Assembly: GCF_016725325.1 (NCBI RefSeq)
Contig: NZ_CP068083.1
Coordinates: forward strand, 1,116,001-1,180,000
Direction: 5' to 3'
Origin: Sphingobacterium spiritivorum
Lineage (GTDB): Bacteria; Bacteroidota; Bacteroidia; Sphingobacteriales; Sphingobacteriaceae
Length of the DNA: 64,000 nt
Shown: positions 19,618 through 53,036 of the stretch, one piece after another
Numbering within the stretch: position 1 is the first letter of the stretch
How the letters are laid out: every line of letters begins with the position of its first letter
Position numbers and translations under genes: made by a program
The notes under the pieces: model-generated
Seen by the model: only the letters and a program-made list of their open reading frames with translations
Database searches by the model: none
Told to the model about the DNA's origin: nothing

Positions 19618-19674
19618 ATTGGTTAATCCAAACTTAGTAAAACCAAAAAGCACAACTATCCTGACCTATCCTGA
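19618..19674 (-). promoter_or_regulatory. Promoter and direct-repeat operator of PUL operon C
   Basis: Minus strand, 5' to 3': TCAGGATAGGTCAGGATAG (19674-19656; two CAGGATA half-sites 10 bp apart), then TTG (19655-19653) as -33 box, 16 nt, and TAAGTTTG (19636-19629), a perfect -7 box. TAACCAAT follows at 19625-19618. The same operator and the same 19-nt spacing to the -7 box occur before operons A and B. This element accounts for much of the 554-bp gene-free stretch 19369-19922; the rest is leader and the terminator at 19794-19850. Confidence 0.75.
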
Positions 19675-19793
19675 AACGTATTTCAAACAGGCAGAAACCG
19701 GAAGGGCTAAACAGAAGAAATATAGATAAGAATATCTACAGACCGGCATTTACATATACCGGTAATGATTGATTTTAAATGTTTTAACAACAA

Positions 19794-19850
19794 AAAGAGA
19801 GACCCCATGAACACTTATTGTGTTCTTTCTTTCCTGGCAGGTCTCTCTTT
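19794..19850 (-). terminator. Terminator of PUL operon B
   Basis: Outer 11-bp stem AAAGAGAGACC (19794-19804) with 19840-19850, enclosing a smaller hairpin GAACAC/GTGTTC (19809-19825). On the minus strand the outer stem is followed by a T-rich tract. It lies 72 bp after the SusD 2 stop codon and upstream of the operon C promoter, so it separates operons B and C. Confidence 0.7.
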
Positions 19851-19922
19851 GGTTGTATTGTTTTTAGGTTAAAGAATTAGAATAAATATTGTTTATATGC
19901 TGCTTAATGTGTGTTTCTGTTG

Positions 19923-21548
19923 TTACAATGGGTAGTTGACATACCAGTTGACAGGATTCATCAGATGCTGTTTAAAGGTTTGCTGATATGCGCCGGTGTA
20001 TTTTTCGCTGACTCTGTTGGCGAGCATAGCCGGATCATTCCAACGGGAGGCGATCCGTATCATCGCAAAATAAGCTTTTGCTTCTCCGGCACTTTCCATT
20101 AATGTTTCTTCAATAATCAGATCATCTACAGCTTTCTTATAGGCTTCTATCTTCTCAGGAGTATTCAGATTATCCTTCGAAAGTCCTGCAGGGTATACGG
20201 GAGAGAGATTAACCCGGCGGCGGATACCCCAGTTTTTTGCTAAAGCCACATTCCATACGGTATTGTTCAGCGGATACTGCAGGTTGTTTGCATTACGGGA
20301 CAGGTATAATTCTATTCCATCATTTAGAAAAGCTTCTGCTTCTTTGAATTTCCCCAGATTATTGAGAGCTTCCACCATAAAAAAGTGAACATCTGCATCT
20401 CTGTAAAGGACGATATGCACATTATTTTTATAGATTTCTGAAGCACTTTCCCTGTCTCTTGAAAACTTACGGATTACCCATTCACCATTTTGAAAATAAT
20501 AGGTGTAATTTTCTCCACGGTACAGGTCTCCAAGTGTATTACCGTCATAGCGTAATTGTTTTTTATAACGGTTCATCGCCACCTCTGTTGGCTTCAGATA
20601 ATATACAGAGGGCTGTGTATTAGAAAAGTAAGAAATTAATTTATTCGTCTGATTACGTTCAAAATCATAGGGCACCACATTGATCAGCCCTCTGGTTTTT
20701 GTAACCGGACTACGGCTGAAAAACTGAATCCATTCTCCGTTGTAATCATCGTTACCTATTTTGTAGCGACCACCTCCATTATCGTATATAAACGGCATGC
20801 CCACCTCTACCACTTTACTGTAATTTTTATTCCACAGATACAGCTCCATTAACAATGGTTCGGGGGATGGACAAATCATGTTCCACACCAGATCCTGTTC
20901 GGACGCATTGACCCCGGGAAAGAGTACATCTCCCCACACGAGTACATTTTTACCATTCACTCCTTCGACACCAGACTCCATCAGGTCAATCAGTTTGGGA
21001 ATCAGCTGGTCTAATGTCAGTACCGGAATTTCTCCCACCTTGTTAATATCCAGATTTTTATCATCAAAGTAAGCTGCCTTTCCATAGAGTTTTCCGATCA
21101 TAAGATACGACCAGACCTTGAATCGTATCGCTCCGGATATAATAGAATTATAGTGTGCTTCTTCTATTGCTTTTGGATTTTTCTTACGGTATTCTATAAC
21201 TTTTGCCAGGTAATTATTTGCATTGATGATAATATCATAGAATCCTTTCGGATTGGCAAATTCATTACCTTGTTTTTCCCTATAGTAATAGAGATCCCAC
21301 AGATCCTGAGGAGCATTTTTTGTAGGTTCCAGCAGATCGGTACGCAGGTCAGCCAGAAAAACAGCCTGATCAGCAACTTTCTGAACTTTTGCAGCTATTC
21401 CCATGTAACCGGAATAGAGTTCATTCGCATTACCCACATAATCTTCGTCTTTCAGGATATCATTGGTATCTACTTCAAAGTATTTTGAACAACCTGTAAA
21501 AAATAAGACTGCACAGATTGCTGTTATTTTCAAATAATTTTTCTTCAT
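19923..21548 (-). CDS. SusD/RagB-like lipoprotein (pair 2)
   Basis: 541 residues, lipobox VLFFTGC followed by SKYFEVDTND. It has the SusD layout: NANELYSGYMGIAAKVQKV helix, RFKVWSYLMIGKLYG, and DVHFFMVEALNNLGKFKEAEAFLNDG near 390-415. The C-terminal part departs from the usual signature (ETLMESAGEAKAYFAMIRIASRW in place of ExKLEL-GEGxRxxDLxRW). It lies 11 bp after SusC 2 and is the last gene of operon B. This diverged SusC/D pair sits directly behind the two FAS1 lipoprotein genes, so the four products may form one complex. Confidence 0.82.
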   Translation of the reverse strand: MKKNYLKITAICAVLFFTGCSKYFEVDTNDILKDEDYVGNANELYSGYMGIAAKVQKVADQAVFLADLRTDLLEPTKNAPQDLWDLYYYREKQGNEFANPKGFYDIIINANNYLAKVIEYRKKNPKAIEEAHYNSIISGAIRFKVWSYLMIGKLYGKAAYFDDKNLDINKVGEIPVLTLDQLIPKLIDLMESGVEGVNGKNVLVWGDVLFPGVNASEQDLVWNMICPSPEPLLMELYLWNKNYSKVVEVGMPFIYDNGGGRYKIGNDDYNGEWIQFFSRSPVTKTRGLINVVPYDFERNQTNKLISYFSNTQPSVYYLKPTEVAMNRYKKQLRYDGNTLGDLYRGENYTYYFQNGEWVIRKFSRDRESASEIYKNNVHIVLYRDADVHFFMVEALNNLGKFKEAEAFLNDGIELYLSRNANNLQYPLNNTVWNVALAKNWGIRRRVNLSPVYPAGLSKDNLNTPEKIEAYKKAVDDLIIEETLMESAGEAKAYFAMIRIASRWNDPAMLANRVSEKYTGAYQQTFKQHLMNPVNWYVNYPL

Positions 21549-21559
21549 CTCTTCAACGA

Positions 21560-24500
21560 TTAGAGTTTCAGGTTAACACCTAATTTAAATGTACGTGGTA
21601 AAGGAATTTTACCATAATCGGCTCCTAACAGACTGATATCATAGCTATAGGCTGTCACAGGATCGAGCCCCAGATATTTGGTCCAGGTATAGATATTTTC
21701 CCCGGAAATATAGATTTCGGTATTGTTAAGTAATTTGAATTTCTGAGCTCCAAAATTATATTTCAGAACTACATTACTCAGGCGCAGATAGGAAGCGTCT
21801 TCAATCCAGCGATCTGAAAAACGACTGTTACCCATCGGATCTCCATAAGTTGCTTTGGGAATTGTCGTCATCTGACCTTCTTCCTGCCATCTGTTGAGGA
21901 TAGCGGTAGACTGATTCTTATAGCTACTCATGTCTTCCAGGCTGCGGCGAACTGCATTATACATCTTATTCCCTTTAGAGAAAGTGACATATCCGCGTAA
22001 GGTTAGTTTTTTGAATCTTATATCTACAAATCCGGATCCATAAAATTTAGGTAATGCATTCCCCAAACTCTTACGATCATCCTTATCAATGATTCCATCC
22101 TTGTTGATATCTTCAAAGATAGCGTCTCCGGCTTCGAAAGGAAGATTTTTGAAGTCTGTCAGATTAAGACGTGAAGCCTCTGCCGAATTACTGATGACAC
22201 CATTGAACTGATAACCGTAAAAATCATATGGAGAGCCTCCGACCTGTGTGATCAGGGTCATGCCATACGGGGCTGTAGTGATCTTTTGATCTATGTTATT
22301 GAGGCTTTTCACTTCATTTCTTAAGGTACTCAGATTTCCACCTATCGTAAATCCGAAATCTTTTTTCTCAATAAGTGTGAGGTTGGCATCAAACTCGAAT
22401 CCGGTATTGAGCAGAGTTGCTCCGTTGACATACATATTTTCGATACCAGCAATGGGTGTGACCGGAACGGCCTGTACAACATCTTTGGCTGTAGTATGGT
22501 AGTAAGAGGCACTTAAGTTCAATCTTTTTTTCCATAAACTTGCAATCAGACTGACATCCCAGTTTCGGACATCTTCTCTGTTTAAGGATGTATTGGGAAT
22601 ATTCCCGACTACGATACCTGACAGCTGACGATAAATCTGGCTGCTGTAGTAGGCCTGACTGAGTTTGGATGAATATCTGCTGTTAGCTGTTTTGGAATAT
22701 CCCGCATTCAGTGTCAGCAGATCCAGATTGGCGATATCTTTAAATGCACTTGTATTTGATAACAAAAATGAAAGATCAACTCCGGGATAAAATCCGAAAC
22801 GGTTCACATCTACTCCTGTAGAGGATGCACCATCAGTTGACAGATACGTCGACGCTTTCACTAAATTCCGCCAGTCATACTGCACAAAACCATAAAAACT
22901 CATCCAGTTCCAGGACTCATTATAGCCATCAAAAGCACGTCCTGCAGCATTTACATAATTGAGCGTGCGATAGAAATCAGAGCTGGTATTACGACCGAAT
23001 CCCGCATCATATTCTCTATCTGTGATCATTCCCTGAAAGCCTACACCTGCCTGAATATTGGATTCATCCAGTTGTTTTGTGTAATCTGCATTTATCTTGT
23101 AATAGATATTGGAATTCTTACCCGATCCGGAACGAGCAGAGTTCAGTGCTACGCCATTTTCCAGGGGCAGAATGGTACGGCTGGACAATCCGGGTATAAA
23201 GGTAGATTGTCTGTTATAACTGGAGAACAATCCGAATGTACCGTATACATTTATGTTTTGGGTAGCTTTGTATTTAACACCCGCATTGACAAATACATCA
23301 TAGATATCCGAATTGATGGTTGTTGTATTAAGCAGAGCCAATGGATTTGACACATTGAATTGTCTGACTATATCATAATCCGGCAATATGTTGTTACGGT
23401 CATCTTTTCTGTAAGGACTGAGTATCGGTGCCTGATAAAGCGACGCCAGCATAGGGTTAGTCGCCTGAAGCATTCCCTGCTCATGCAGTTTATTCGTCGC
23501 ATATGTCAATGCTACACTCGCCGACAGGTCAAATTTCTTGCCTAAGGTAAGCGTTGAATTGAGGCGGGTACTGTAGCGTGTAGATTTACTGTTGTCCAAT
23601 GTTCCATTCTGATCCATCACCCCCAGAGAGAGATCATATTTGGCAATAGCATCCCCCCCTTTGATACGAAGGTGATTATCCGTAACGAATGCGGGAGTAT
23701 AGATCTCATTTTGCCAGTCTGTATGATTATTGTACAGAAAATTGTAATAGTAGTTCGGGTCATCTCTTAAAAACGGAAAGTAGCTAATCATATCATTCAT
23801 ATCCGCAAACTGAGACATTCCTACATCTCCGATAAAGTTTTTAAAATCACTTCCCTGCAGTACCGGGATACGTTTGTTATTATATCCTATACCATAGTTT
23901 CCTTTGAATTCAATAACTGTTTCGAGATCATCTGCAGATGAGGTCTCAATAAGGAGAACGCCATTGGATGCTAATGATCCATATACGGCAGCCTCCGAAC
24001 CTTTAAGCAATCTGATACTCTTGACATCCTGCGGATTGATGGCATTAAATACACTTCTGGAATACCCTCCGATAATAGTAGATGTTTCATTATCCGGAAA
24101 ATATGGCATCCCGTTCAGAATAATGAGGGGTGAATTATCTGCAGTTAAAGTTCTTATCCCACGAAAGTTCAGCACGCTTCCCTCTGTAGGCATTCCACTT
24201 TTATTAATTACATTCAATCCCGAAAATTCACCGGCTATTACATCTTCAATATTATAGACGCCATCCTTGAAATCCTGATTATATAAAATGGATGTTCCTT
24301 TATTGGCAAAAATACCTTCTTTGACTTCATCAAATTTGAAACGTGTATCAGGGACCAATGTCACCACAATAGAATCCCGCTTCAGTGTACTGACCTGCAG
24401 TTCGTGAAATCCGGGACTCCATACTGTAATAAGGGCGGAAGTACCGACATCGTCGACCTTCAATGAAAAATCTCCGTTTTTATTGGTTTGTGCAGAGGTG

Positions 24501-24667
24501 GCACTGTTTTTTATAGAAACAATTGCATTCGCTACTGCAGCATTATTATAGGAGCTCAGTACCTTTCCTTTTATTACCCGCTGTGCAAAAGCCTGCTCTA
24601 CACTACACAAACCTATAACCGAGCTTACAAGCAAAATTTTATATAATATATTCACCCTTTTTATCAT
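21560..24667 (-). CDS. SusC-like TonB-linked transporter without canonical SusC box (pair 2)
   Basis: 1035 residues. Signal peptide (ends EQAFAQ), regulatory-like beta domain (VIKGKVLSSYNNAAVANAIVSI), plug with LNFRGIRTLTADNSPLIILNG and VKSIRLLKGSEAAVYGSLASNGVLLI, then the barrel ending in RTFKLGVNLKL. Where pairs 1 and 3 carry LDEVVV-type text, it reads KFDEVKEGIFANKGTSILYN, so the TonB/SusC box is weak. It follows a FAS1 lipoprotein gene by 50 bp and precedes its SusD partner by 11 bp. It probably imports a related glycan; the substrate is not visible from the sequence. Confidence 0.88.
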   Translation of the reverse strand: MIKRVNILYKILLVSSVIGLCSVEQAFAQRVIKGKVLSSYNNAAVANAIVSIKNSATSAQTNKNGDFSLKVDDVGTSALITVWSPGFHELQVSTLKRDSIVVTLVPDTRFKFDEVKEGIFANKGTSILYNQDFKDGVYNIEDVIAGEFSGLNVINKSGMPTEGSVLNFRGIRTLTADNSPLIILNGMPYFPDNETSTIIGGYSRSVFNAINPQDVKSIRLLKGSEAAVYGSLASNGVLLIETSSADDLETVIEFKGNYGIGYNNKRIPVLQGSDFKNFIGDVGMSQFADMNDMISYFPFLRDDPNYYYNFLYNNHTDWQNEIYTPAFVTDNHLRIKGGDAIAKYDLSLGVMDQNGTLDNSKSTRYSTRLNSTLTLGKKFDLSASVALTYATNKLHEQGMLQATNPMLASLYQAPILSPYRKDDRNNILPDYDIVRQFNVSNPLALLNTTTINSDIYDVFVNAGVKYKATQNINVYGTFGLFSSYNRQSTFIPGLSSRTILPLENGVALNSARSGSGKNSNIYYKINADYTKQLDESNIQAGVGFQGMITDREYDAGFGRNTSSDFYRTLNYVNAAGRAFDGYNESWNWMSFYGFVQYDWRNLVKASTYLSTDGASSTGVDVNRFGFYPGVDLSFLLSNTSAFKDIANLDLLTLNAGYSKTANSRYSSKLSQAYYSSQIYRQLSGIVVGNIPNTSLNREDVRNWDVSLIASLWKKRLNLSASYYHTTAKDVVQAVPVTPIAGIENMYVNGATLLNTGFEFDANLTLIEKKDFGFTIGGNLSTLRNEVKSLNNIDQKITTAPYGMTLITQVGGSPYDFYGYQFNGVISNSAEASRLNLTDFKNLPFEAGDAIFEDINKDGIIDKDDRKSLGNALPKFYGSGFVDIRFKKLTLRGYVTFSKGNKMYNAVRRSLEDMSSYKNQSTAILNRWQEEGQMTTIPKATYGDPMGNSRFSDRWIEDASYLRLSNVVLKYNFGAQKFKLLNNTEIYISGENIYTWTKYLGLDPVTAYSYDISLLGADYGKIPLPRTFKLGVNLKL

Positions 24668-24717
24668 AACTATTCAATAAGCATTCTTTAAAAACATTAT
24701 AAAACTGCTTTACTCTT

Positions 24718-26298
24718 TTAATAATTGTTTTGTGTGGGAATCAACGCCCAATGATATAAATCCATTTGTTCAGCCGTTCCTTTACCCAGTCCGGCAAATT
24801 CTACTTTTATTCTAAACCGTCTCACCTGAGTACCATCTATAATGACAGGCCCTACCAATCCTCCCCATCCGTTATACTTGGTACTACCTACGGTATTGGT
24901 TGAGCGATCATAGTTCCATGGTGTGGAAGGTTCTACGTTGAGTGCACTTTTAATCAGTTTACCATCGATATAGATATTTACAAACGGATGTGTGGTGGAG
25001 CGGAATCCCATATACAGATTATATTCTCCGGGAGGAACTTCAACCACTTTATAACCGGTAGATCCGTCGCTGTTGCGTACAGTCATTACTGGTGTAAAGT
25101 CTATAGAAAGCGGTGCTCCTGCAATTTTCTCCCCTTTCAGAACCAGTGTACGGTATTTGTATTCCAGTCCCAGTGTCGGGAAACTTGCATTATCGCGGTC
25201 TGTCGGGACAACACTGGTCGCATTGCGTACTGTAAACAGGTTTGCTTTTTCATTATCCGGCACATATTCCCAATAATGAAAAAACTGTTTGATCATGTCG
25301 ATATGTACATTGTTAGGTACTTTCAGTTTCGAGATTTCAAATATTCTGCCGTTACTCATTCTTTTATAAGCCGGATTTACTTGCTGAACACTTGTTTTCC
25401 ACAGTTTGTTGAAAGCCGAATATATATTTTCTTCACTGCCATAATCATCAACCAGTTTATTATAAAAGATAGCTTCTTTGATCCAGGACATAGCTTTGAG
25501 ATAATCATCCTCTTCAAATGTTTTCCCAAACTGAGCATAGAGACTTCTCAAATCATTAAAACAATTGTTCAGCACCTGATTGCTTGGCAGAAACATACTG
25601 ACCTGTACAAATTCTGAACGGATATTTGCTTTTTCAAAAATCGGATTCTTGATCACATAGGCTGAATCATAAACGGTATTTCCGGTAGGATCCACACCTA
25701 TAGGAATACTGTTGGCCAGATCAAAAATGGTATCATTAAGTCGCAGAATAGTATCCCGGATAATGGAATAATCAGATCCCAGTCCTTCCAGATATTCATA
25801 GATACTTACATCCGGTTTCATGAGTTCATTAATCTCATGCACAACTCCGTTTTTACATAGTTGATTACCATTGACAAGAACTGCATCTCCTATCTGATAT
25901 TTACCTGAAGCATCCTGATTAATAGACAGGTATTTTCCATTCAATGTCTTCAGTCGTAATCCTTTTTTAAGTTTAGAGACATCATAGGTAAGATTGTTCA
26001 TATGGTAACCCATCACATACTTTTCATCCAGATTTAATTGTGCCAGGCGGTCCATCTGTTCATTATTTACCACCCATACCGTCAGATACTGATCTCTTTG
26101 CAGCTCCTGTGCCAACCCGGCTTCTTCTAATTTTGCTACAAATTTGCTATACTCCGGTTTTGATTTCAGGTAGTCCAAAAGATTTAAAGGAGATACGGTA
26201 GTCGTTCCTTCTGATGTTCCATAATGGCTGTCCCAGGCTTTTTTACAGCTCGAAAAGCAGAGCACTGCTGCTATAAGAGCAAAAATTAATCTTTTCAT
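24718..26298 (-). CDS. FAS1-domain lipoprotein with C-terminal beta-sandwich (FAS1-c)
   Basis: 526 residues. Lipobox AVLCFSSC. Two fasciclin-like repeats: LNLLDYLKSKPEYSKFVAKLEEAGL... to CKNGVVHEINELMKPD (about 35-165), and a looser one from SIYEYLEGLGSDYSIIRDTI to about 345. The last 140 residues (from about 385) are beta-rich: RTLVLKGEKIAGAPLSIDF, VEVPPGEYNLYMGFRS, VNIYIDGKLI and RRFRIKVEFAGL, resembling a carbohydrate-binding jelly roll. FAS1 domains usually mediate adhesion. In this operon a surface glycan-binding role beside SusC/D 2 is suggested by position only. It is a paralogue of the upstream gene. Confidence 0.8.
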   Translation of the reverse strand: MKRLIFALIAAVLCFSSCKKAWDSHYGTSEGTTTVSPLNLLDYLKSKPEYSKFVAKLEEAGLAQELQRDQYLTVWVVNNEQMDRLAQLNLDEKYVMGYHMNNLTYDVSKLKKGLRLKTLNGKYLSINQDASGKYQIGDAVLVNGNQLCKNGVVHEINELMKPDVSIYEYLEGLGSDYSIIRDTILRLNDTIFDLANSIPIGVDPTGNTVYDSAYVIKNPIFEKANIRSEFVQVSMFLPSNQVLNNCFNDLRSLYAQFGKTFEEDDYLKAMSWIKEAIFYNKLVDDYGSEENIYSAFNKLWKTSVQQVNPAYKRMSNGRIFEISKLKVPNNVHIDMIKQFFHYWEYVPDNEKANLFTVRNATSVVPTDRDNASFPTLGLEYKYRTLVLKGEKIAGAPLSIDFTPVMTVRNSDGSTGYKVVEVPPGEYNLYMGFRSTTHPFVNIYIDGKLIKSALNVEPSTPWNYDRSTNTVGSTKYNGWGGLVGPVIIDGTQVRRFRIKVEFAGLGKGTAEQMDLYHWALIPTQNNY

Positions 26299-26309
26299 AA
26301 TCGTAATAT

Positions 26310-27926
26310 TTAGTCTATAGGATCAAATCGTATATAATCCAGCGTAATCAGCTTTCCATCTAAAGAAAGTATACGCAGTTTGTGAGATGTTGTCTCTTCA
26401 AAAGTGACATTGCCGAGAGACTGTTCCAGCTGTCTGTCTGTACGTGTGTTACTAATAGTATGTTTTTCTCTCATCAACGCCCCATCCAGAATAAATGAAC
26501 AGATTCCTGTGGACGTTGCCTGAATAGGGCTTGGCCAGAAGAAGGTCACTTTGTACTTACCTTTTACGATTACAGGGCTGTTCATTTCTATCCAGCCTGA
26601 CTCTCCCAGGGTAACGCGCAAATGATCGTAATTCAGCACTTCACTGTAATAAATACCATCTGCCGGTCGGCTGTTACGGTAAATCAACACATTGCTTCGT
26701 GTCTCCGGGCGTGCACTCCAGATAATACTCTTGAGGTCTCCGGTAATAAATGTTTTGTTATACTGTGCACTCAGATTTGGTTTCTTAAACTGGGTTACAT
26801 TGGCTTCTATATCCGGATAGTCGGACAATTCCCAGATGACGGATACCCTTTCCGGTGTAAACACCGGCATCCAGTTATTCACTTCATGCAATACTCCGTT
26901 TTTACACAGCACATTGAACTCTAAAAATTTAATTCCTGTAGTATTAGCCGCATTACTGTTCAACAGTAATTCTCCCTGTCCTTCCGACATCTTGATGAGT
27001 TGTTTGTCTGCTAATGTGTTGATATTCATCTTACGCTGTCCTGAAGGGAACTGACCAAGACTGGCATAATCTCTCAACTGACCAAGAAGATGATAAGCGA
27101 CATATTGATTCAGGGGATTCTTCACATCTGTATAAGGCAGTCCATTACTGGCGGATAACTTAGTAATAAGATCAGCGATACTTCTCACATTGTCCGCAGC
27201 AAAAGTCTGATTGGAGACTGCAAATGCGGTATAGCGGTACCGGATTTCTATAGGGTTACCCTGTTCATCTGTGGAAGGTGTATATACTGTTTTCAAACGT
27301 TCTTCATAACCGGCCATTTTCACTGCTTCATAGAAGATACTGAATTTGTCCTGTTGAAGACGGTCAATGATCGTTTCTGTCAACGGCGTCAATACATCTT
27401 CGATAACATGTATAATTCCGTTGGTTGCTTTTACATCAAATTTTTTAAACCGGGAAAGTCCGTTAAGATATACGGCTTCAAGCCCTCCTCCTCTGAATTC
27501 TATACTCAGGTTATCATCCGTTTCATTAAGTTCGTCAATAGCTCCACTCTGAAACTGTCCCAGATCAATAACAGTTCCTGCAATCAGATGATAGCGGACC
27601 AGATAAGCAGCATCTTCTTTGGACATATCCTGCACACTTGCATAACCTTTGGCTTTTAAATAGCGGTCAACACCTTCATTAGAGGGTACAAAATGGGTAT
27701 AATTTGCATTCAGATTAAGTGTATTGTACAGATCCGCCTGATTCAAGACTTCTACCCAACGGGAGAATTGATCTGGATGCTGCTTGAGATATACTGAAAT
27801 CGGGAATTCATCATAAGCTGTGAAGGTTTTATCTTCAAAGCTATCTTTACAGCTATTGACCAGTAACAGCGGAAACAACAGCAAGAATGCCTGTATGGTC
27901 CGGTGTAAGTTATAAATTCGTTTCAT
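26310..27926 (-). CDS. FAS1-domain lipoprotein with C-terminal jelly-roll-like domain (FAS1-b)
   Basis: 538 residues. Lipoprotein signal with LLLVNSC. First FAS1 repeat: FPISVYLKQHPDQFSRWVEVLNQADL, THFVPSNEGVDRYLKAKGY, GIIHVIEDVLTPL (about 40-195). Second: about 200-365, ending CKNGVLHEVNNWMPVF. The C-terminal 150 residues include GKYKVTFFWPSPIQ, CSFILDGALM and HKLRILSLDGKLITLDYIRFDPI; the ending is reminiscent of CBM6/CBM35 beta-sandwiches. It lies 6 bp after SusD 3 and 11 bp before FAS1-c, so it is in mid-operon. No catalytic motif is seen. A glycan- or cell-surface-binding role is inferred. Confidence 0.8.
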   Translation of the reverse strand: MKRIYNLHRTIQAFLLLFPLLLVNSCKDSFEDKTFTAYDEFPISVYLKQHPDQFSRWVEVLNQADLYNTLNLNANYTHFVPSNEGVDRYLKAKGYASVQDMSKEDAAYLVRYHLIAGTVIDLGQFQSGAIDELNETDDNLSIEFRGGGLEAVYLNGLSRFKKFDVKATNGIIHVIEDVLTPLTETIIDRLQQDKFSIFYEAVKMAGYEERLKTVYTPSTDEQGNPIEIRYRYTAFAVSNQTFAADNVRSIADLITKLSASNGLPYTDVKNPLNQYVAYHLLGQLRDYASLGQFPSGQRKMNINTLADKQLIKMSEGQGELLLNSNAANTTGIKFLEFNVLCKNGVLHEVNNWMPVFTPERVSVIWELSDYPDIEANVTQFKKPNLSAQYNKTFITGDLKSIIWSARPETRSNVLIYRNSRPADGIYYSEVLNYDHLRVTLGESGWIEMNSPVIVKGKYKVTFFWPSPIQATSTGICSFILDGALMREKHTISNTRTDRQLEQSLGNVTFEETTSHKLRILSLDGKLITLDYIRFDPID

Positions 27927-27932
27927 AGTTGG

Positions 27933-29399: not shown

Positions 29400-29411
29400 A
29401 TGATTTATACA

Positions 29412-32654: not shown

Positions 32655-32708
32655 AAAATTTGTTCTTAATCGGTAGGTTTAATTGATATTGTTGAGTCCC
32701 GTCTGCTA

Positions 32709-39151: not shown

Positions 39152-39205
39152 ATCTCAGCTACTGATAAAATCATCTAATTCCCTGGTCGGGAACTCATAA
39201 ACAGT

Positions 39206-40351: not shown

Positions 40352-40383
40352 ATGTTTAGTTCTTCTGTTTTATTTTTTGTGTA

Positions 40384-41169
40384 TTAAGGCAGGAGGTAAT
40401 TCTTCAATTCTGTTTGTGTTAATTCTTTTATTGCCTGAACAACAATCTGTGCATTTTTTTGAGCACCTTCATAACTGGTATGGGTATGATCTGCCGCAGT
40501 GAAATAAGCAACAACTTTTTCTTTACCAATTTTATCAAATTCATCCGCTATGAGATGATGAAGATCAATAAAAGGAACCTTATTATTTTGTGCCACCTGC
40601 TCAGCCCAGGAAGGATAACTTCCTTCAGCCCGCTCTACTTTATGATCTTTCCATCTGTCTCGTGGTACAGGTGAACAGATGATGACGTGTACACCTTTCT
40701 GCTTTGCCTCCTGTATCATCTTTGTCAGATACCAGCCATAGGTATGGACAATTTCTTCCTGTCTGCTTATAGGGTTATAAATGGTCTTTACTTCATCTCC
40801 GATTCCCTTGATCGTACCTCTTGCTCTTGCTGTATCATCCAAAGGACTGCCGTCGTTGTGGCCAAACTGTACCATTAAATAATCACCTTTACTAAGCTGG
40901 TCGAGCACATTTTTCCATAATCCCTTACTGATAAATGTACGTGTACTTGTGCCTCCTAATGCCCGGTTTTGAATATCTATCCTCGTCGTATCAAAATATT
41001 GTTCCAAAACGCTTCCCCAACCCCATTGTCCTCCATCTCCTTTTCCTTTACCATTTTTTACAGTAGAGTCTCCGATCAAAAAGATAACCGGTTTGCGCTG
41101 CGGAGCTGTAAAAGATACAGCCATGAGGAAGACTGCTAAAAAGCAGATATTAAGGCCTGATCGTTTCAT
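40384..41169 (-). CDS. CE12 rhamnogalacturonan acetylesterase
   Basis: 261 residues. The SGNH fold is complete: FLIGDSTVKNGKG (nucleophile Ser35), GGTSTRTF (block II), VQFGHNDG (Asn105 in GHND) and ADHTHTS (Asp227 and His230 of the triad). The pattern and length match CE12 enzymes, which remove acetyl groups from galacturonate in RG-I. Signal peptide: MKRSGLNICFLAVFLMAVSFTA. The start of this gene overlaps the end of the PL11 gene by 20 bp, which suggests translational coupling. It is the second esterase of the locus, beside the SASA-type enzyme in operon C. Confidence 0.92.
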   Translation of the reverse strand: MKRSGLNICFLAVFLMAVSFTAPQRKPVIFLIGDSTVKNGKGKGDGGQWGWGSVLEQYFDTTRIDIQNRALGGTSTRTFISKGLWKNVLDQLSKGDYLMVQFGHNDGSPLDDTARARGTIKGIGDEVKTIYNPISRQEEIVHTYGWYLTKMIQEAKQKGVHVIICSPVPRDRWKDHKVERAEGSYPSWAEQVAQNNKVPFIDLHHLIADEFDKIGKEKVVAYFTAADHTHTSYEGAQKNAQIVVQAIKELTQTELKNYLLP

Positions 41170-42997: not shown

Positions 42998-43025
42998 AAC
43001 ACTTTTTCTGATCGTTGGTTACTGA

Positions 43026-45221: not shown

Positions 45222-45271
45222 TTTTAGTTTTATTTTTATCTCCTGCTGCGTAATTATTGGTTTACAATACC

Positions 45272-48200
45272 TTATCGCAACAGACTTAAGCCCATCAATC
45301 CCACAACAACATCATTGGCAACCGACTTCAGTTTCAAGCTTTTAAGTTCTTTCTTAGCATCTAATGGCAGATCCAGTACTGTTGCAGCTCCTCCGTCAAT
45401 ACCACGTTTTGTAAATCCCTTTATTTCTACATATTTCGCTTCGCCACCTTTTACTACTTTTCCCGTTTTCAGATGTACCCGGAGCGGACGATCCTGCTTC
45501 AATACGAACGCATATGGATCTTCTGAAAAATCCTGTTCTATTGGCCACCAGTTTTCGGGATTACGTAAGGTCAGTTCTGCTGTCGTTCCATCTGTATACT
45601 GTATCTGTATGACGGCATTGATCAGCTGACTTTGCATAGGATTGGTTGAGCCTGCCATCAGGAAATAGGCATGTCTGGCTTTGCCTGATAGCGGAATATC
45701 CTTTTCTGTCGGAAAATTATCCCATTGAGAAGTAAAGACGATATTATTTCCTTTAGCAGCTGAGATGCCGAAAGACAATCCATTTGGCAGGTTAAATACT
45801 CCGTTGACAGATGCAGCTCGTAATCCGGTATCATCAATAGTCGCTGTTGTATTCGGATAGCACCAGTTTCCAATCCCCTGAACAGGCAATTGCAATGTCG
45901 GTGATGCCGGACGCGGACTCCAGTATTTATTCTGGAAAATCTGTGTAACAGCATCATTAAAATAAGGTTTCAGATTAACTATCTCGACTTTAGCCGCTAA
46001 GGGTAATGTCCAATTGCTATACTGAACGGTTCCGAGTGTACCTGTTTTTTCCACTATCTGAAGGGTATTTGTCCCTGATTGAAATAAGGTCATCGGCAAT
46101 ACTAGATCTCGTGTTTCCTGCTGTGCCAGCTGAACAGACTGTACTTGTTTTTGATCGATAAACAAACTTCCCTGAATCAGTTTTCCGGACTGATTTTTCA
46201 TCGTCAGCGTTACAGATGTTTGATCCGGACTTTCTTTTACAGACAGCTCCAGAGGTTCTGCAATACGTAAATCTACAGGTTGCCACCAGCTGAAATCCTG
46301 TTGTCTGACTTTGACAAAGAAAGTTCCCCGGTTGCGCTTGTCTTTAAGCTGGAATGTGCCTTTACTTATATCCTGACTTTCGAGCAGTCCCTGCGGATCA
46401 TTTACAGCCTGAATCTGTGCTTTACCGGATTGTATAGAAAGGTGTGTATCTGCAGGAGTGGTCTGCACATAACTGATCTTTTCTAATTCCTGGTCTGCCC
46501 ATCGGATCTGAACATCATAATGATCCGCTTTTGCCGCATAGATTTCTATTTTAGCTGCTCCCACAGCATTTTCAACAATTTTCCATGATGCCGGAGTTCC
46601 GTTAACAGATAGCGACTGGACACCTGCCTTTCTGGCTTTGAGAACCAGTTTTAAGTTCATCTTCTGCTGAAACTTAGGTTTGATCGTATAGTGCTCTATA
46701 TTGTTATGGAGCTTAAAGTCAAAATCAATATTCGGACTTTCTAATGTACTGTACTCCCAGCTTACAGGTAATCCGGGCTGAATGGTCAGTGTATCTGCTA
46801 AGGCATCTGGTAGAATTCCGTATAAACCTTCAAAAAGAGTTCTGGAAGCTACTCCGATTGGATCTGCAAAGTCACGGTATAATTCACCCCGCTCTGCATC
46901 ATAGAACGAAAGCTGTTGAAAATTACCCGGACTGGCTCCGTAAAACATGCTTTCAATAAGGTTACTTTTCCAGAGTTCAAAAGCTTTCATCTCTCTTCCC
47001 GCCTGCCAGTACGCCAGTGCTGTCTGCAGATTCTCTGCCAGAGCCACATTGTTGACTGACCAGGTATAGGGTTGCCAGTTTGTTGTGGATAAGGTATACA
47101 AGCCCTGATCTTTCGCATCAGCCACGCGGACAGGAATATGCGGGATATAATCGTCTATATAACGTAATGCCTGATAAGCCTGAAATGAATCCATAAAACG
47201 TCCATCCAATGCATGATAGATCGTCCATACTCCGGGCTGATCGTGTAGCAATTGTTCACCTAATAAATCCTTAAATTCCGCAAAATAACCTTTGTCTTTG
47301 ATCCAAAGTTTTGCCAGCAAAGCCTGTCTGATTTTCTCCGCTTCCCGTTCATATGGAGTTGGATCTTCTTCCATTACTTTTGCCAGTCGGGCAGCCATCA
47401 TATTTCCCCGGTAATTGTAAGCAGAAGTATGGGTAACGCCTCCTCCAGAATATTGTAAACCGTCACTGGCCCAGATAGCACAGTAGGCATCATACAGTCC
47501 ATCTCCATCCATATCAAAATTCCGCTTTTCCCAGGCGAGATGTCTCTTGATAGCCGGCCAGACTTCTTTCAGAAAGGTCCGGTCTCCGGTATACTGAAAA
47601 TGTGTAAACAGCTGATCGAAAAAGACCAGATTCATATCATAATGATGCGGTACTGTATTGTTGTTCGGATTCCGGGAGATATAACCACTTGAGAACATGG
47701 CTGTACCCATTTTTTCCAGATGCCTGGCAATATTAAGTGCGGTGTCTGCTATGACTTTTCCCTCGGGAGGATCTGTAACCTGTGAATGGACATAACTTCT
47801 GAAATGGGCTTCTGCCCGGTCATTCCACCCCAACGGATTGGCCACATATGCACCTCTCCAGGCATTCAGCCGCATACGCCAGGCGACAGCACCATGCAAA
47901 TAGGTAGGCGATTCCCATATTCCGTCTGCAGCAAGCGCAAGCGCACTTCCGACCGTATTGATATGTTCATCCGGTGTATGTATACGTATACGTCCGGCTA
48001 AGGTCTGTACTTTATTTTTACTTTGATCAAACAGTTTCTGGAGAGAGAGCTGAGGTGCTTTTGCTCCTTTGCCTTGTCCTCGTTGAATAGCAACATAGGC
48101 AGTTGCAGTTTGATTCAGTTTATATTTTGCGGCTATTGCCGGAGTTGTTGTGGCAGTACTGGTCCACAACTGATCTACATCTTTCAACGCAGAGGCATTG

Positions 48201-48889
48201 ATCAGTCTGACCTCCGGTTTTCCGGAAAATGATCCCGCCAGATATTGCAGTTCTCCCTTTTTATTGGGGTAGGATACCTGAAAATTACTTTTATTGATCT
48301 GGTAGGTATTATGTTCACAGTACTCCGGCAACAGATAAAAACTGGATTCCGGATCTGCTCCTATATCTCCGGCACGACTGAATGTTTTTCCACTTGCACC
48401 TCCGTATACAGCGATCAAGGCTATTCCGTCCGGAACATTTTTTGATTTAACTTCTACGATCATCCCCTCTTCATCCGCCTGAGCCAACACGGTAATCTGC
48501 AATTCCCCTCCGCCCAATACTTTGTCATTGATTGTATAGACCATACTTCCGGAAGTATAGCGAACATCTGCCAGTGTAAGGTCATCAAACCGGATCATTT
48601 TCTTACCCGATTGAAGTACAAACTGCAGATTGCCCCCCATTCCGGGCATATATAATGCAAATTCAGGACGGTCCCCGGCTTCAACACGAAAGGCTGTATT
48701 CGTACCATACAGGGCACGATTAAATTTACGCACACCTTTTACCAGTACGATATCCTGGCCGTCAGGACGGTAATGTAAGGTCCGCTCTTTTCCATGCCAG
48801 TAATCTGCTGTTTGACTAAAGGCAACAGGAGCCCACAAGGAAGCCCCCGTCACCAATAATCCAACAATATGTATCTTTCTGAATCTCAT
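45272..48889 (-). CDS. DUF4450 protein with six-hairpin glycosidase-like domain
   Basis: 1205 residues; signal peptide ends PVAFSQ. The N-terminal third is DUF4450-like: WHGKERTLHYRPDGQDIVLVKGVRKFNRALYG-type text and PEFALYMPGMGGNLQ (about 75-90). The middle (about 310-720) is an (alpha/alpha)6 barrel: AVAWRMRLNAWRGAYVANPLGW, DGLYDAYCAIWASDGLQYSGGGV and AYNYRGNMMAARLAKVM. The C-terminal third is beta-rich. The function is not established to my knowledge; the fold and operon position suggest a glycosidase for an RG-I linkage. It lies 2 bp after the GH28-a gene and 50 bp before the GH65-like gene. Confidence 0.8.
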   Translation of the reverse strand: MRFRKIHIVGLLVTGASLWAPVAFSQTADYWHGKERTLHYRPDGQDIVLVKGVRKFNRALYGTNTAFRVEAGDRPEFALYMPGMGGNLQFVLQSGKKMIRFDDLTLADVRYTSGSMVYTINDKVLGGGELQITVLAQADEEGMIVEVKSKNVPDGIALIAVYGGASGKTFSRAGDIGADPESSFYLLPEYCEHNTYQINKSNFQVSYPNKKGELQYLAGSFSGKPEVRLINASALKDVDQLWTSTATTTPAIAAKYKLNQTATAYVAIQRGQGKGAKAPQLSLQKLFDQSKNKVQTLAGRIRIHTPDEHINTVGSALALAADGIWESPTYLHGAVAWRMRLNAWRGAYVANPLGWNDRAEAHFRSYVHSQVTDPPEGKVIADTALNIARHLEKMGTAMFSSGYISRNPNNNTVPHHYDMNLVFFDQLFTHFQYTGDRTFLKEVWPAIKRHLAWEKRNFDMDGDGLYDAYCAIWASDGLQYSGGGVTHTSAYNYRGNMMAARLAKVMEEDPTPYEREAEKIRQALLAKLWIKDKGYFAEFKDLLGEQLLHDQPGVWTIYHALDGRFMDSFQAYQALRYIDDYIPHIPVRVADAKDQGLYTLSTTNWQPYTWSVNNVALAENLQTALAYWQAGREMKAFELWKSNLIESMFYGASPGNFQQLSFYDAERGELYRDFADPIGVASRTLFEGLYGILPDALADTLTIQPGLPVSWEYSTLESPNIDFDFKLHNNIEHYTIKPKFQQKMNLKLVLKARKAGVQSLSVNGTPASWKIVENAVGAAKIEIYAAKADHYDVQIRWADQELEKISYVQTTPADTHLSIQSGKAQIQAVNDPQGLLESQDISKGTFQLKDKRNRGTFFVKVRQQDFSWWQPVDLRIAEPLELSVKESPDQTSVTLTMKNQSGKLIQGSLFIDQKQVQSVQLAQQETRDLVLPMTLFQSGTNTLQIVEKTGTLGTVQYSNWTLPLAAKVEIVNLKPYFNDAVTQIFQNKYWSPRPASPTLQLPVQGIGNWCYPNTTATIDDTGLRAASVNGVFNLPNGLSFGISAAKGNNIVFTSQWDNFPTEKDIPLSGKARHAYFLMAGSTNPMQSQLINAVIQIQYTDGTTAELTLRNPENWWPIEQDFSEDPYAFVLKQDRPLRVHLKTGKVVKGGEAKYVEIKGFTKRGIDGGAATVLDLPLDAKKELKSLKLKSVANDVVVGLMGLSLLR

Positions 48890-48891
48890 CT

Positions 48892-50313
48892 CTACTTTCC
48901 TGCAGGAGCCTCTGTTTTTACACCGTTAATAATTACATTTTCAAATATGATATTGTCCAGATAATCCACCATATAAGGTTCTTTCACACCATTGATTTCA
49001 CAATTGACCATGCGGAAATTTTTAATGGGTGAACTTTCATAAGCGGCTGACATCAGCGCGTATTTTCCGCCTTTTTTAACATGCATATTCTCTACCCATA
49101 CATTGCGGATAGTAGGAATATGATCGCCTGGTTTTTCGTAGAACATATTGAATTTGACAGCTGCTTCCTTGTATGTGCCGACTTCTACATCTTTCATAAA
49201 GACATTTTCAATAATACCTCCACGGCTCGAGCTTGTTTTTAACCGAAGGATACGGTCCAGATTAGGACTATCCATCTTATTATTCAGCGCATAAATATTA
49301 CGTGCTCCGCCAGCGATTTCGCTACCGATAACGACACCGCCGTGTCCGTCTTTCATAATACAATTTTCAATGATATGATTCTCAGCAGGACGGCCGATGT
49401 TGCGTCCGTCCTCATCTCTGCCCGATTTGATCGCAATACAATCATCTCCGGTGTCGAAATAACAATCTTTTATAAGTACATTTTTACAGGCTTCCGGATC
49501 ACAACCGTCATTGTTTGGTCCGTGACTAATCACTTTAACCCGCTCTATAGTTACGTTTTCACACAATACAGGATTCAGATTCCACATGGGCGAATTGATC
49601 ATCCTGATATCTTCAATAAGGATATTTTTACAGTTGTAAGGCTGTACAAAGTTGGGTCTCAGGTACTGTCCGTCTCCGAATACCCGTTGTTTAGCATCGA
49701 CTTCCTGATGCATCATCGTATGCAGTCTGGCTCTGGCAGGCTTTTGTTCTCCGCTCCTGGATTCGTTCCATCCATATTTGCGGGCTCCGCACCACCACCA
49801 CCAATTATCATTATCTGAATTCCCATCTAATGTTCCTTTACCAGTGATGGCGATATTTTCTTCTCCATAAGCATAGATAAAGGAAGAATAGTTCATACAT
49901 TCCATACCTTCCCAACGCGTAAATACAATAGGATAATCCGAACTGTCACGACTAAACAAAATAGTAGTACCATCGGTAAGATGCAGGTTGACATTGCTTT
50001 TGAGGTAAATAGCACCCGTCAGAAAAACTCCGTGAGGAACCACAACCCGGCCACCACCTTCAGCATGGCATTTTTCTATAGCCAGGCGGAAAGCTTCTGT
50101 ATTCTTGGTGACGCCATCTCCTTTCGCTCCGAAGTCGGCAATATTGTAATCCTTATTTTTGAATGTAGGTCTGACAATAACTTTTCGCAAGGCTTCGATT
50201 TCCTGTAAAGGCTGCGAAACATCGGTCCACACTTTTTCCTGCGCAGATGCTGAGCACATGATCAGCATGCAGACTGCAACTGCTATAGTATTGAGATTAA
50301 AGATCTTCTTCAT
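48892..50313 (-). CDS. GH28 pectin hydrolase (GH28-a)
   Basis: 473 residues with signal peptide (MKKIFNLNTIAVAVCMLIMCSASAQ). Right-handed beta helix with all GH28 landmarks: PNNDGCD (267-271, the NTD site), TGDDC (Asp290, Asp291), DGHGG (His324) and RLK (Arg357, Lys359). GH28 includes polygalacturonases and rhamnogalacturonan hydrolases; the aromatic-rich GNSDNDNWWWWCGARKYGW insert and context support an exo-acting oligogalacturonide or RG-I enzyme in the periplasm. It lies 14 bp after GH28-b. Confidence 0.92.
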   Translation of the reverse strand: MKKIFNLNTIAVAVCMLIMCSASAQEKVWTDVSQPLQEIEALRKVIVRPTFKNKDYNIADFGAKGDGVTKNTEAFRLAIEKCHAEGGGRVVVPHGVFLTGAIYLKSNVNLHLTDGTTILFSRDSSDYPIVFTRWEGMECMNYSSFIYAYGEENIAITGKGTLDGNSDNDNWWWWCGARKYGWNESRSGEQKPARARLHTMMHQEVDAKQRVFGDGQYLRPNFVQPYNCKNILIEDIRMINSPMWNLNPVLCENVTIERVKVISHGPNNDGCDPEACKNVLIKDCYFDTGDDCIAIKSGRDEDGRNIGRPAENHIIENCIMKDGHGGVVIGSEIAGGARNIYALNNKMDSPNLDRILRLKTSSSRGGIIENVFMKDVEVGTYKEAAVKFNMFYEKPGDHIPTIRNVWVENMHVKKGGKYALMSAAYESSPIKNFRMVNCEINGVKEPYMVDYLDNIIFENVIINGVKTEAPAGK

Positions 50314-50327
50314 GTTAGTTTACGGGC

Positions 50328-51773
50328 TTATAGGTTAATATTTTCAGTATCTTCAAGTACGACTTCTGTTCCATCCTGAGACGTTACTTTTACATTGTTC
50401 AACTGCCAGTTTTTAGCATGACGGATTACGCCTGCCGTCTTTGCCGTGATAGCAACATTTTCAAGGCTGAATTTTTGTAAGGGGTTTTCCTGCAAACCAT
50501 CCACATGGATAGCACGTTGTGCAAATTTCACAAAGACATTTTTGATCTGTATATTCTGAAATGTTGGGATTCCTTTACTTGCAGGTTCTACAGGTGTCAC
50601 CATTTTCTTCCAATGGTCAGGCACTTTATCTATATCATATCCTGACGGCAGTTTAGAATAACTGTAAGCCGGATTCCAGTTTGGCGTTATCTCAAATGCT
50701 GTCCTGACGCTGTCCATCTGTATATTTTCAAGAAGAATATCTTCTACAACTCCACCCCGGTTACGTGCTGATTTGAGACGAATTCCAACTTTAGTACCAT
50801 GTGCTTTGAGATTACGCGCGATAATGTGGCGCATCCCTCCGGAAGTTTCACTTCCAAAGGTAATCAGACCATCTCCCTTACGGGATATACAGTCGGTGAT
50901 AAGGACATACTCTGTCGGTCTGTTGACACGCAGACCATCCCAGTCGCGACCGGATTTAATACAGAAATTATCATCATTACAATCTATATCTGCATTTTGT
51001 ATACGGATCCACTTAGATGAATCAATATCAATACCGTCTGTACTCGGACCGATGCCATTAATATTATTCTTAATAATAATCCCATCTACAGTAACATAGG
51101 AAGAATAAAGTAAATGAACCGTCCAGAAACCTGCCTGCTTCAGAGTCACGTCTCTGATAATAATATCCTCACTTCCGTCTACGATCACAGTGCGTGGACG
51201 TTGTGCATCGTAATCCACAATCCATCTCAATCCTTTCTTATCATATTCAGATCTTAACTTCCAGTACGCATCCCAAAAAGGCTTGCCTTGTCCGTTAATG
51301 ATTCCCTTTCCGGAAATTCCGGCTTTTTGCTGGCCGTTAATATTCACAAGAGCTGCAGGCCAGACCATTTCTATGCCTGCCACACGGGTATTGATTTGTG
51401 GATAATCTTCCAAAGACTGGCTACCTAAGAGCTCTACTCCTTCATCCACATGCAGAAATACACCAGATTTGATAAAAATAGAACCCGTTAGGTATTTGCC
51501 CGGCCGGAATTGCACCTTACCTCCGCCTTTTTTTGCACAGGCATCTATTGCCTGCTGAATAGCTTTTGTGCTTATGGTCTTTCCATCTTCCCTGGCCCCA
51601 AAATCGTTGGCATATACGACTGCCTTACCGATCTTAAAATTTCTTGCGCCTACCTTGCCTACCCAGCTTGGGTCTGACGCAGCAAAAGCTGTGAATGAAA
51701 CAAATACCAAAAGGATGCCCATCAACATGGCTTTGGGGGCGAAGGCTCTTGGATTACATTTGAATACGTTCAT
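50328..51773 (-). CDS. GH28 family protein with altered catalytic-site His (GH28-b)
   Basis: 481 residues, hydrophobic signal (LMGILLVFVSFTAFAA). Beta-helix with STDGIDID (Asp246), CNDDNFCIKSG (Asp267, Asp268) and RLK (Arg332, Lys334). The GHG motif that carries His324 in GH28-a reads GDG here (Asp301), so the conserved His is missing. It may act on a different linkage, as rhamnogalacturonan-type GH28 enzymes do, or have changed activity. The order in the operon is beta-propeller, GH28-b, GH28-a, with 36-bp and 14-bp gaps. Confidence 0.9.
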   Translation of the reverse strand: MNVFKCNPRAFAPKAMLMGILLVFVSFTAFAASDPSWVGKVGARNFKIGKAVVYANDFGAREDGKTISTKAIQQAIDACAKKGGGKVQFRPGKYLTGSIFIKSGVFLHVDEGVELLGSQSLEDYPQINTRVAGIEMVWPAALVNINGQQKAGISGKGIINGQGKPFWDAYWKLRSEYDKKGLRWIVDYDAQRPRTVIVDGSEDIIIRDVTLKQAGFWTVHLLYSSYVTVDGIIIKNNINGIGPSTDGIDIDSSKWIRIQNADIDCNDDNFCIKSGRDWDGLRVNRPTEYVLITDCISRKGDGLITFGSETSGGMRHIIARNLKAHGTKVGIRLKSARNRGGVVEDILLENIQMDSVRTAFEITPNWNPAYSYSKLPSGYDIDKVPDHWKKMVTPVEPASKGIPTFQNIQIKNVFVKFAQRAIHVDGLQENPLQKFSLENVAITAKTAGVIRHAKNWQLNNVKVTSQDGTEVVLEDTENINL

Positions 51774-51809
51774 GATATAGTTGTTTTAATAGGTTACAAT
51801 TTAAAAAAA

Positions 51810-52904
51810 TTACCAAATCTGGTTTGGATTACAACGGAAAACCATTGCTGAAGAAGTATTATATTTTCCTCCCTGAGAAGCTCCGAACAGCCATTCAGGC
51901 TGATTTTTTTTATTTAAAAGCAACATAGGACGTTCCAGCCGGCCAATACGTTTGAGAGATGTCGGGTAAGGCCCTTCTTTGGTGTATGCAGATATAGCCT
52001 GGAAAGCCAGCTCAGGTTCAGACCACTTCTTACCATCAGCAGACCGCATCAATAACCCGTCTTCGTGACTCTGAACACCCATATCCCGGGCAATCATATA
52101 AAACATACCCTTTTCGATCCACACAAAGGCATCTTCAAACTGCGCATTCCCTCCTTTTGCAGAAAAATCAATAACAGGATTCTGCACATATTTTTTAAAA
52201 GGCCCCTCTGGAGAAGATGAAACGGCTAATCCATATTTACGATTACCACGTATGGCACCTTTCTCTGCCAGATAGTCGGCTGTATTCCAGGATTTGTAAA
52301 AAAGGTAATATGCCTTATCCGCTGTTTGTATTACTGTAGGGTTCGTTGTACAATGGTCATCCCAGCTCCCTTCTTCACCTGCTTCCAGGATAGGCTGATC
52401 TGTCCGCTTCCAGGGTCCGTCCAATGATTCAGCGGTTGCCAGACCAATTCTTTTGGTATTGGTCTTACCGTTAGAATTGCCCATATAATAGAGGTAATAC
52501 GTATTATTGAACCGGGTTATTGACGGATTATGACAAGTGGTGGCATCCCAGTAACCGGCTCCACGCGGAGCAAGTACCGTTTCTTTAACCACAAAAGGCT
52601 GATCCGGTGAAGGTGCAACAGCATGTACTATCTCTGATCCTTTGAGCCAGCCCCCCATACCCAATTCCTGCTTCCATCTGGAGAAGAATACATGTACCTG
52701 GCCCTGGCTGTCATAGATTGGTGAACTGCACCACACAAAATAACCTTCCAGTTCTAATGCACGGCCAATATATTTCAATCCTTTTGAAAACGCTGATTCC
52801 CGCAATTTTAAAACAGAGATCTGCCCAAGCACTGTCGAATGACAAGCGATCAACCCAAGTGTCTGTGCAAAAAGTGTTAAAAATTTCTTTCTGTTGTAAA
52901 TCAT
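51810..52904 (-). CDS. GH43/GH117-like five-bladed beta-propeller glycoside hydrolase
   Basis: 364 residues from the ATG at 52904; a TTG 30 bp upstream would only add a hydrophilic lead. The N-terminal segment FLTLFAQTLGLIACHS includes a possible lipobox (LIAC), so it may be a lipoprotein. Propeller signatures: CSSPIYDSQGQVHVFFSRW, CHNPSITRFNNTYYLYYMGN, GLATAESLDGPWKR, TTNPTVIQTADKAYYLFYKSW and FEDAFVWIEKGMFYMIARD (likely acid Glu/Asp). These are shared by GH43 and GH117-type enzymes; the exact family cannot be set by eye. It is the first gene of operon A, 80 bp after the predicted transcription start. Confidence 0.78.
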   Translation of the reverse strand: MIYNRKKFLTLFAQTLGLIACHSTVLGQISVLKLRESAFSKGLKYIGRALELEGYFVWCSSPIYDSQGQVHVFFSRWKQELGMGGWLKGSEIVHAVAPSPDQPFVVKETVLAPRGAGYWDATTCHNPSITRFNNTYYLYYMGNSNGKTNTKRIGLATAESLDGPWKRTDQPILEAGEEGSWDDHCTTNPTVIQTADKAYYLFYKSWNTADYLAEKGAIRGNRKYGLAVSSSPEGPFKKYVQNPVIDFSAKGGNAQFEDAFVWIEKGMFYMIARDMGVQSHEDGLLMRSADGKKWSEPELAFQAISAYTKEGPYPTSLKRIGRLERPMLLLNKKNQPEWLFGASQGGKYNTSSAMVFRCNPNQIW

Positions 52905-52976
52905 TAGAAAATCCGGTTTACCAGTTGTTAGCAAAAAAAAATGTTTCCATTTTTCATTTGCTGTATCAATTTTTTG

Positions 52977-53036
52977 ATTGGTTATTTACCGCAAGATAAC
53001 CCACCTTCCATAAAACAGCATCCTGCACCATCCTGA
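52977..53036 (-). promoter_or_regulatory. Promoter and direct-repeat operator of PUL operon A
   Basis: Minus strand: TCAGGATGGTGCAGGATG (53036-53019), two CAGGATG half-sites 10 bp apart; TGT at the -33 place; then TATCTTGC (52998-52991) as a weak -7 box, exactly 19 nt after the operator, as in operons B and C. TAACCAAT follows at 52984-52977. The weak -33 and -7 boxes suggest that activity depends on an activator bound at the repeat. Confidence 0.72.

Follow-up and report, generated by a model that had tools for sequence, protein, structure and literature searches.

Four Neighboring Operons for Rhamnogalacturonan I and Rhamnose Use in Sphingobacterium spiritivorum Share a Direct-Repeat Promoter Design, Probably Read by a GntR-LacI Regulator

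At PhoB/OmpR-type class-II promoters, tandem half-sites one helical turn apart replace the -35 element. Here we describe direct repeats with a 10-bp period in a window of 64,000 nucleotides from Sphingobacterium spiritivorum (contig NZ_CP068083.1, positions 1,116,001 to 1,180,000; coordinates below are those of the window unless the contig is named). The repeats are predicted to place use of the rhamnogalacturonan I (RG-I) pectin backbone and catabolism of L-rhamnose, encoded by four neighboring gene groups, under a common promoter switch. Their probable reader is a GntR-LacI chimeric protein, which belongs to a protein family other than that of PhoB and OmpR, and no OmpR gene recurs near the present sites.

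AraR of Bacillus subtilis likewise joins a GntR winged-helix N terminus to a LacI/GalR-like sugar domain and governs a sugar and its polymers, but it represses through palindromic operators (PMC4494728), whereas the sites described here are direct repeats in fixed promoter phasing and occur across the Bacteroidia. The MocR-type GntR proteins GabR and PdxR, together with NanR, NagQ, and FarR, use a GntR domain to read direct repeats (PMC4494728); in the present case the effector domain is LacI-like, not of the aminotransferase or FadR/HutC type, and the half-sites are exactly 10 bp apart. The RhaR regulons resemble our system in that a single regulator serves L-rhamnose catabolism and rhamnose polymers, and the motifs of DeoR-type RhaR proteins contain 10–11-bp direct repeats (PMC3870299). 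That survey describes regulators of the AraC, DeoR, and LacI types, does not mention GntR, and assigns rhamnose regulation in Bacteroidales to an AraC protein whose motif has a 21-bp period. Finally, the HTCS_Rgu hybrid two-component system (HTCS) proteins of Bacteroides act at direct repeats ahead of RG-I polysaccharide utilization locus (PUL) operons (PMC3878776), but with a center distance of ~21 bp, with other half-sites, and with membrane sensors of the two-component kind that the locus itself encodes.

An earlier note, made from the sequence alone, had described three operons (A, B, and C) that begin with paired CAGGATR half-sites at identical spacing from a -7 box. All three repeats are present where the note placed them, and each time exactly 20 nt separate the end of the second CAGGATR from the TA with which the -7 box, TAnnTT(TG), opens. 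Another promoter with this architecture, overlooked by the note, lies ahead of rhaT at 60368-60324; it carries CATGACAGcgCATAACAG, likewise a 10-bp direct repeat that precedes TAATTTG by 20 nt. The four operators are as follows.

53018..53035, minus strand: operator A, direct repeat CAGGATGG-TG-CAGGATGC; -7 box TATCTTGC at 52998-52991; predicted start ~52986.
35111..35128, minus strand: operator B, direct repeat CAGGATAG-GG-CAGGATGG; -7 box TATTTTTA at 35091-35084; predicted start ~35079.
19656..19673, minus strand: operator C, direct repeat CAGGATAG-GT-CAGGATAG; -7 box TAAGTTTG at 19636-19629; predicted start ~19624.
60351..60368, minus strand: operator R, driving the rhamnose operon, CATGACAG-CG-CATAACAG; -7 box TAATTTGC at 60331-60324; predicted start ~60319.

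Starts were predicted by setting the -7 box at -12 to -5, its position in the numbering of PMC9723704, and those of A, B, and C fall within 2 nt of the positions proposed earlier (52984, 35077, and 19622). The half-sites are then at about -49 to -42 and about -39 to -32, and the second overlies the position of the -33 element, in agreement with the earlier suggestion that the operator touches that element.

The design is highly specific within the genome. The pattern CAGGATRNNNCAGGATR (CAGGATR-N3-CAGGATR) has three matches in the entire 5,135,302 bp, namely operators A–C, and the reversed pattern has none; by chance, ~0.15 repeats would be expected, and ~0.0006 with the box at +20. Permitting three mismatches in the whole design added just two matches, both poor, so that the off-target matches that would have spoken against the earlier proposal are lacking at any weight. 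A scan of the 64-kb window with the half-site CAKRAYRS returned exactly four repeats followed by a -7 box within 19–21 nt, in every case at 20 nt and with 0 mismatches, and no near-misses with one to three mismatches. We also considered a generic or global PUL promoter, which is ruled out: the genome has 57 SusD-type matches and three sites, and the element is therefore specific to the locus. Within the window, the SusD-type gene and its neighbor beyond the rhamnose operon (61234-63870) have no such operator. As three of the operons are adjacent, their promoters could be duplicates that resemble each other by ancestry, or by chance, without common regulation. This explanation is refuted for practical purposes by the chance expectation given above, by spacers and flanks that differ while the half-sites and the gap stay constant, and by conservation in many genera and families, for which the reversed controls were clean.

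That conservation was another test posed by the earlier note, and it too was passed. The design is present in 58 of 201 genomes of the family, in 11 genera, and in other Bacteroidia as well; the reversed control gave no match in the family. When repeats were collected without regard to the box, TAnnTT lay exactly 20 nt away in 77 of 137 distinct family repeats, whereas other distances account for ~1.2 each on average, and several of the remaining repeats have a near-consensus box at the same position. In a sample of the phylum, 18 of ~100 Bacteroidia genomes contain the design, and none of ~295 genomes of other classes does. A scan of GTDB species genomes yielded at least 120 stretches with the design; the 80 titles among the matches listed were all from Bacteroidota, and these matches included Flavobacteriaceae, Chitinophagaceae, Cytophagales, and Saprospiraceae. 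Two variants were noted among the loci examined (numbered with the prefix L). In L072 (G192), a threefold repeat with a 10-bp period, CAGGATACTACAGGATACTGCAGGATAC, stands at 6508 ahead of SusC/D, and its -7 box fits only loosely at 20 nt. In both L065 and L084 (genus g8), the CAGGATR site is directed toward the 3' end of a conserved, convergent AraC-type gene.

The candidate reader is encoded within the locus itself.

35294..36325, minus strand: GntR-LacI chimeric (AraR-type) regulator, proposed operator reader, last gene of operon A.

The gene lies 45 nt downstream of GH106 and, because it comes last in operon A, is probably controlled through operator A. The protein has 343–352 aa, depending on the start; the TTG called at 36352 is probably incorrect, since the orthologs start at an ATG that gives 343 aa. 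A GntR winged-helix N-terminal domain is present (PF00392, 6.6e-9 in the window protein and 8e-14 in an ortholog); by profile comparison the DNA-binding part matches 4egy, the corresponding domain of AraR, and its best NCBIfam match is MocR PdxR. For the C-terminal part, the LacI-like family PF13377 is below its cut-off in the window protein and above it in L338 and L332, and an AlphaFold model (pLDDT 86) resembles structures of the LacI family as well as 3tb6, the effector domain of AraR; the effector domain is thus LacI/GalR-like. Among the ten GntR matches in the genome, this is the sole protein of GntR-LacI architecture, the others having different frame sizes (~215–270 or 470–500 aa). The earlier note had named it as the only linked candidate and had seen no AraC-type or hybrid two-component regulator nearby, and both statements hold: the window contains no AraC/HTCS gene, and the nearest of 50 HTH_18 matches in the genome are at contig positions 964,551 and 1,281,878.

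The presence of the GntR protein follows that of the sites. It was found in all 74 site-bearing genomes that were checked. In the family, 58 of 58 genomes with a site carry it, compared with 78 of 143 without (Fisher 1e-12); because closely related genomes are not independent, this and the following p values overstate the association, and weight is placed on within-genus contrasts and on the lack of any exception. In the genus of the window, sites occur in 17 of 27 genomes with the gene and in none of eight without it (0.003). Outside the family, a high-scoring GntR is present in 16 of 16 site genomes and in 18 of 64 others (8e-8), and in one genus there the numbers are six of six and three of 16. 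The rhamnogalacturonan lyase family PL11 was considered as the sole driver of this co-occurrence, as all 55 PL11 genomes of the family carry GntR. That candidate was rejected in part: among PL11-negative family genomes, sites occur in 19 of 81 with GntR and in none of 65 without it (6e-6), so that 19 site genomes without PL11 have GntR.

Linkage was also found. In L317 the order is GntR, CAGGATR site, rhaT-rhaEW-rhaI-rhaK, and in L332 a CAGGATR site lies between rhaEW and a divergent GntR gene. Across 120 phylum-wide loci totaling 947 kb, there are 12 GntR genes and four AraC genes, compared with ~9 AraC genes expected at the density of the window's own genome. These counts bear on the possibility that the three RG-I operons are under an unlinked HTCS or AraC protein, on the model of Bacteroides thetaiotaomicron, where RG-I loci are assigned to HTCS and the rhamnose operon to an AraC protein (PMC3878776). 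Three of the genome's HTH_18 matches are in HTCS-sized frames, and an HTCS gene lies near a site in two relatives (L127 and L140). However, the period is 21 bp in the motifs of HTCS and of Bacteroides RhaR, compared with 10 bp here, and AraC genes are not enriched near sites: in the genome itself, 80 family loci, and the 120 phylum-wide loci, linked AraC/HTCS copies were few and mutually unrelated. We consider control by such a protein improbable, and it is now less likely than control by the linked GntR. Queries for LacI, OmpR, NarL, and CRP near sites gave isolated matches or none.

The operons downstream of the operators, annotated with Pfam in the case of A–C, are the following.

36398..52934, minus strand: operon A enzymes, GH43, two GH28, DUF4450/rhamnosidase-like, 731-aa protein, PL11 RG lyase, GDSL esterase, GH88/105, GH106.
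19923..34979, minus strand: operon B, fasciclin protein, SusC, SusD, two fasciclin proteins, SusC, SusD.
11623..19368, minus strand: operon C, SusC, SusD, SASA esterase, GH88/105.
53142..60287, minus strand: rhamnose operon, RhaT, bifunctional rhamnulose-1-P aldolase/dehydrogenase (RhaEW), rhamnose isomerase, FGGY kinase, FMN-dependent dehydrogenase.
53072..53118 (approximate ends), minus strand: hairpin and T-run, read from the sequence, terminating the rhamnose operon ahead of promoter A.

The terminator lies between the rhamnose operon and promoter A, and operon A is therefore a separate transcription unit. The view of the earlier note that the operons form one regulon is supported, but the number of operons should be four instead of three: operator R, being of the same build, probably brings in the rhamnose operon, for a regulon of ~26 genes. 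Two proteins of the locus have no Pfam match. The 731-aa protein of operon A (43026-45221) is 56–76% identical to proteins in the RG-I loci of relatives and weakly resembles a kojibiose hydrolase model (3e-9). The 218-aa open reading frame divergent from rhaT (60523-61179) was considered as a regulator and gave just a weak SecF-like match; a homolog (53%) adjoins a CAGGATR site in L130.

The genes that follow sites in relatives are of a related kind. In the family they include fasciclin-SusC/D operons, PL11, GH28, GH106, GH105, esterases, and GH43. Of the first downstream genes in the 120 phylum-wide loci, 70 encode proteins similar to those of the window (SusC 26, fasciclin 13, GH28 nine, GH106 eight, rha genes four, and others); GH78 rhamnosidases, ulvan lyases of PL28 and PLH30, and fusions of a sulfatase to GH78 are among the remainder. 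Operators thus precede rhamnose catabolic genes (the rha operon of the window; L317, L321, L332, and L366-L378) as well as genes for rhamnose polymers (GH78, ulvan lyases, PL11, and GH106), and the common denominator of the targets is L-rhamnose. Across the class, the design is not confined to RG-I: in other species it is also found ahead of ulvan genes and, in the genus of the window, ahead of cytochrome c/DUF7133/Gfo-Idh operons. Among the genus and its near relatives, L079, L083, L098, L128, L129, L136, and L142 have CAGGATR sites ahead of operons that contain SusC/D, cytochrome c/DUF7133, DUF4432, isomerase-like, and Gfo/Idh genes; the substrates of these operons are perhaps rhamnose-bearing glycosides.

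What speaks most for GntR as the reader is that the repeat goes with the regulator family. Beside a rha operon and GntR, the repeat is CAGGATAG/CAGGACAG in L366-L378, CATGATGG in L357, CAGGATR in L317 and L332, and CATRACAG in Sphingobacteriaceae (L183-L188). With intermediates between the site classes in L274, L355, L358, and L363, these repeats form a continuum around CA[G/T]RAYRG, which suggests that a single protein may accept both CAGGATR and CATRACAG. A palindromic GntR operator was also sought ahead of rha genes; the rha promoter of the window has no good one, and the sequences screened exposed the CATRACAG repeat instead. Paralogous GntR-LacI proteins adjoin other repeats with the same 10-bp period. 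In L384-L390 (at ~4.1–4.8 kb in each), the paralog gene is divergent from an aldose epimerase-galK-galT operon preceded by CTGGTAGG/CTGGTATG, and the repeat CTGGTAGGTACTGGTATG lies 20 nt before the -7 box; this paralog is likely a galactose regulator. In a third group (L392 and L394; at ~4.8 kb), the repeat is GTTCTGTT (also given as GTTCTGTTCCGTTCTGTT) near a xylose-type operon, in loci with GH43, FGGY kinase, isomerase-like, and transaldolase genes; this paralog is likely a xylose/arabinose regulator. Overall, 23 of 94 GntR upstream regions contain a 10-bp repeat at 19–21 nt, compared with 0.44 in shuffles and no more than three for any other period of 7–23 bp. The repeats beside the paralogs and in these upstream regions argue that the repeat is a property of the regulator family.

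Several observations weigh against the proposal that one GntR activator reads all of these sites. A GntR gene lies within 10 kb of just six of 105 family CAGGATR sites, and some sites in the window's own genus precede operons with no evident rhamnose link (cytochrome c/DUF7133/Gfo-Idh). In the loci examined, CAGGATR (208) and CATRACAG (32) are nearly separate classes with one mixed site, and yet the genome has one GntR of this architecture, so that a second reader is conceivable. Two regulators of one build could accordingly share the work, with GntR acting on the CATRACAG sites of rhamnose operons and an AraC, DeoR, or two-component protein on CAGGATR. GntR genes are indeed closer to CATRACAG sites (13 of 88 within 2 kb) than to CAGGATR sites (three of 105), and the DeoR-type rhamnose regulators with their 10–11-bp repeats offer a precedent (PMC3870299). 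But CAGGATR sites are confined to genomes with GntR, also when PL11 is controlled for and within genera; in other families CAGGATR itself separates GntR from the rha operon (L317, L332, and L366-L378); and the recognition-helix region SRDTxEKGY is common to the GntR orthologs compared. AraC, as noted above, is not enriched near sites, and a DeoR-family gene gave no match in ~200 loci, in a search with a single E. coli DeoR query and thus of low sensitivity. We regard the division between two regulators as unlikely.

Most characterized GntR and AraR proteins are repressors on palindromes (PMC4494728), which also weighs against activation and raises the possibility that the same GntR protein occupies the repeats as a repressor, blocking the -33 region until sugar releases it. 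Most LacI regulators repress as well (PMC4494728), and an operator on the -33 region also fits steric blocking. Repression, however, does not need an exact 20-nt gap, which is nevertheless fixed, and a promoter with a half-site in place of its -33 element should need help. Repression therefore seems doubtful to us, if somewhat less so than a second regulator.

The fixed gap, the common helix face, and the replacement of the -33 element make class-II activation the likeliest mode, and we think it probable that the GntR-LacI protein (35294-36325) is a rhamnose-keyed activator of this type at all four operators. In this mechanism, it would read two 8-bp half-sites, CA[G/T]RAYRS, spaced at 10 bp along the same face of the double helix, the second substituting for the -33 element. 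Binding of L-rhamnose or its product by the LacI-like domain would enable GntR to recruit RNA polymerase, and the four operons (one for RG-I depolymerases, two for SusC/D import, and one for rhamnose catabolism) would be induced together. The gntR gene itself, standing last in operon A, would be induced as well, giving a self-amplifying loop. The sites with their geometry, conservation, targets, co-occurrence, and linkage are documented above; that the protein binds them, which molecule induces it, and that it activates are inferences.

The openly readable literature searched yielded no GntR-type regulator of rhamnose, RG-I, or ulvan use in Bacteroidota and no rhamnose GntR with direct-repeat operators, and the novelty of such a regulator is provisional. 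Monosaccharide sensing for polysaccharide use has been described as uncommon, with fructan in B. thetaiotaomicron as the sole earlier report known to the authors of a 2025 paper (PMC12125979). For the Bacteroidia as a whole, we give about even credence to a wider generalization, that AraR-type GntR-LacI proteins form a family of direct-repeat class-II activators that may each sense one cytoplasmic monosaccharide (rhamnose, galactose, or xylose/arabinose), and that the rhamnose member may command entire PULs for unrelated polymers, pectin RG-I on land and ulvan in the sea, with no two-component or sigma/anti-sigma polysaccharide sensor. PULs with no obvious sensor are common outside gut Bacteroides, and such loci would thereby be given a regulator, whose operator code and promoter geometry could guide searches of any genome. 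Polymer depolymerization, import, and monosaccharide catabolism would be joined in one rhamnose-keyed circuit, and the fixed geometry provides a specific prediction for a class of proteins known mainly for repression.

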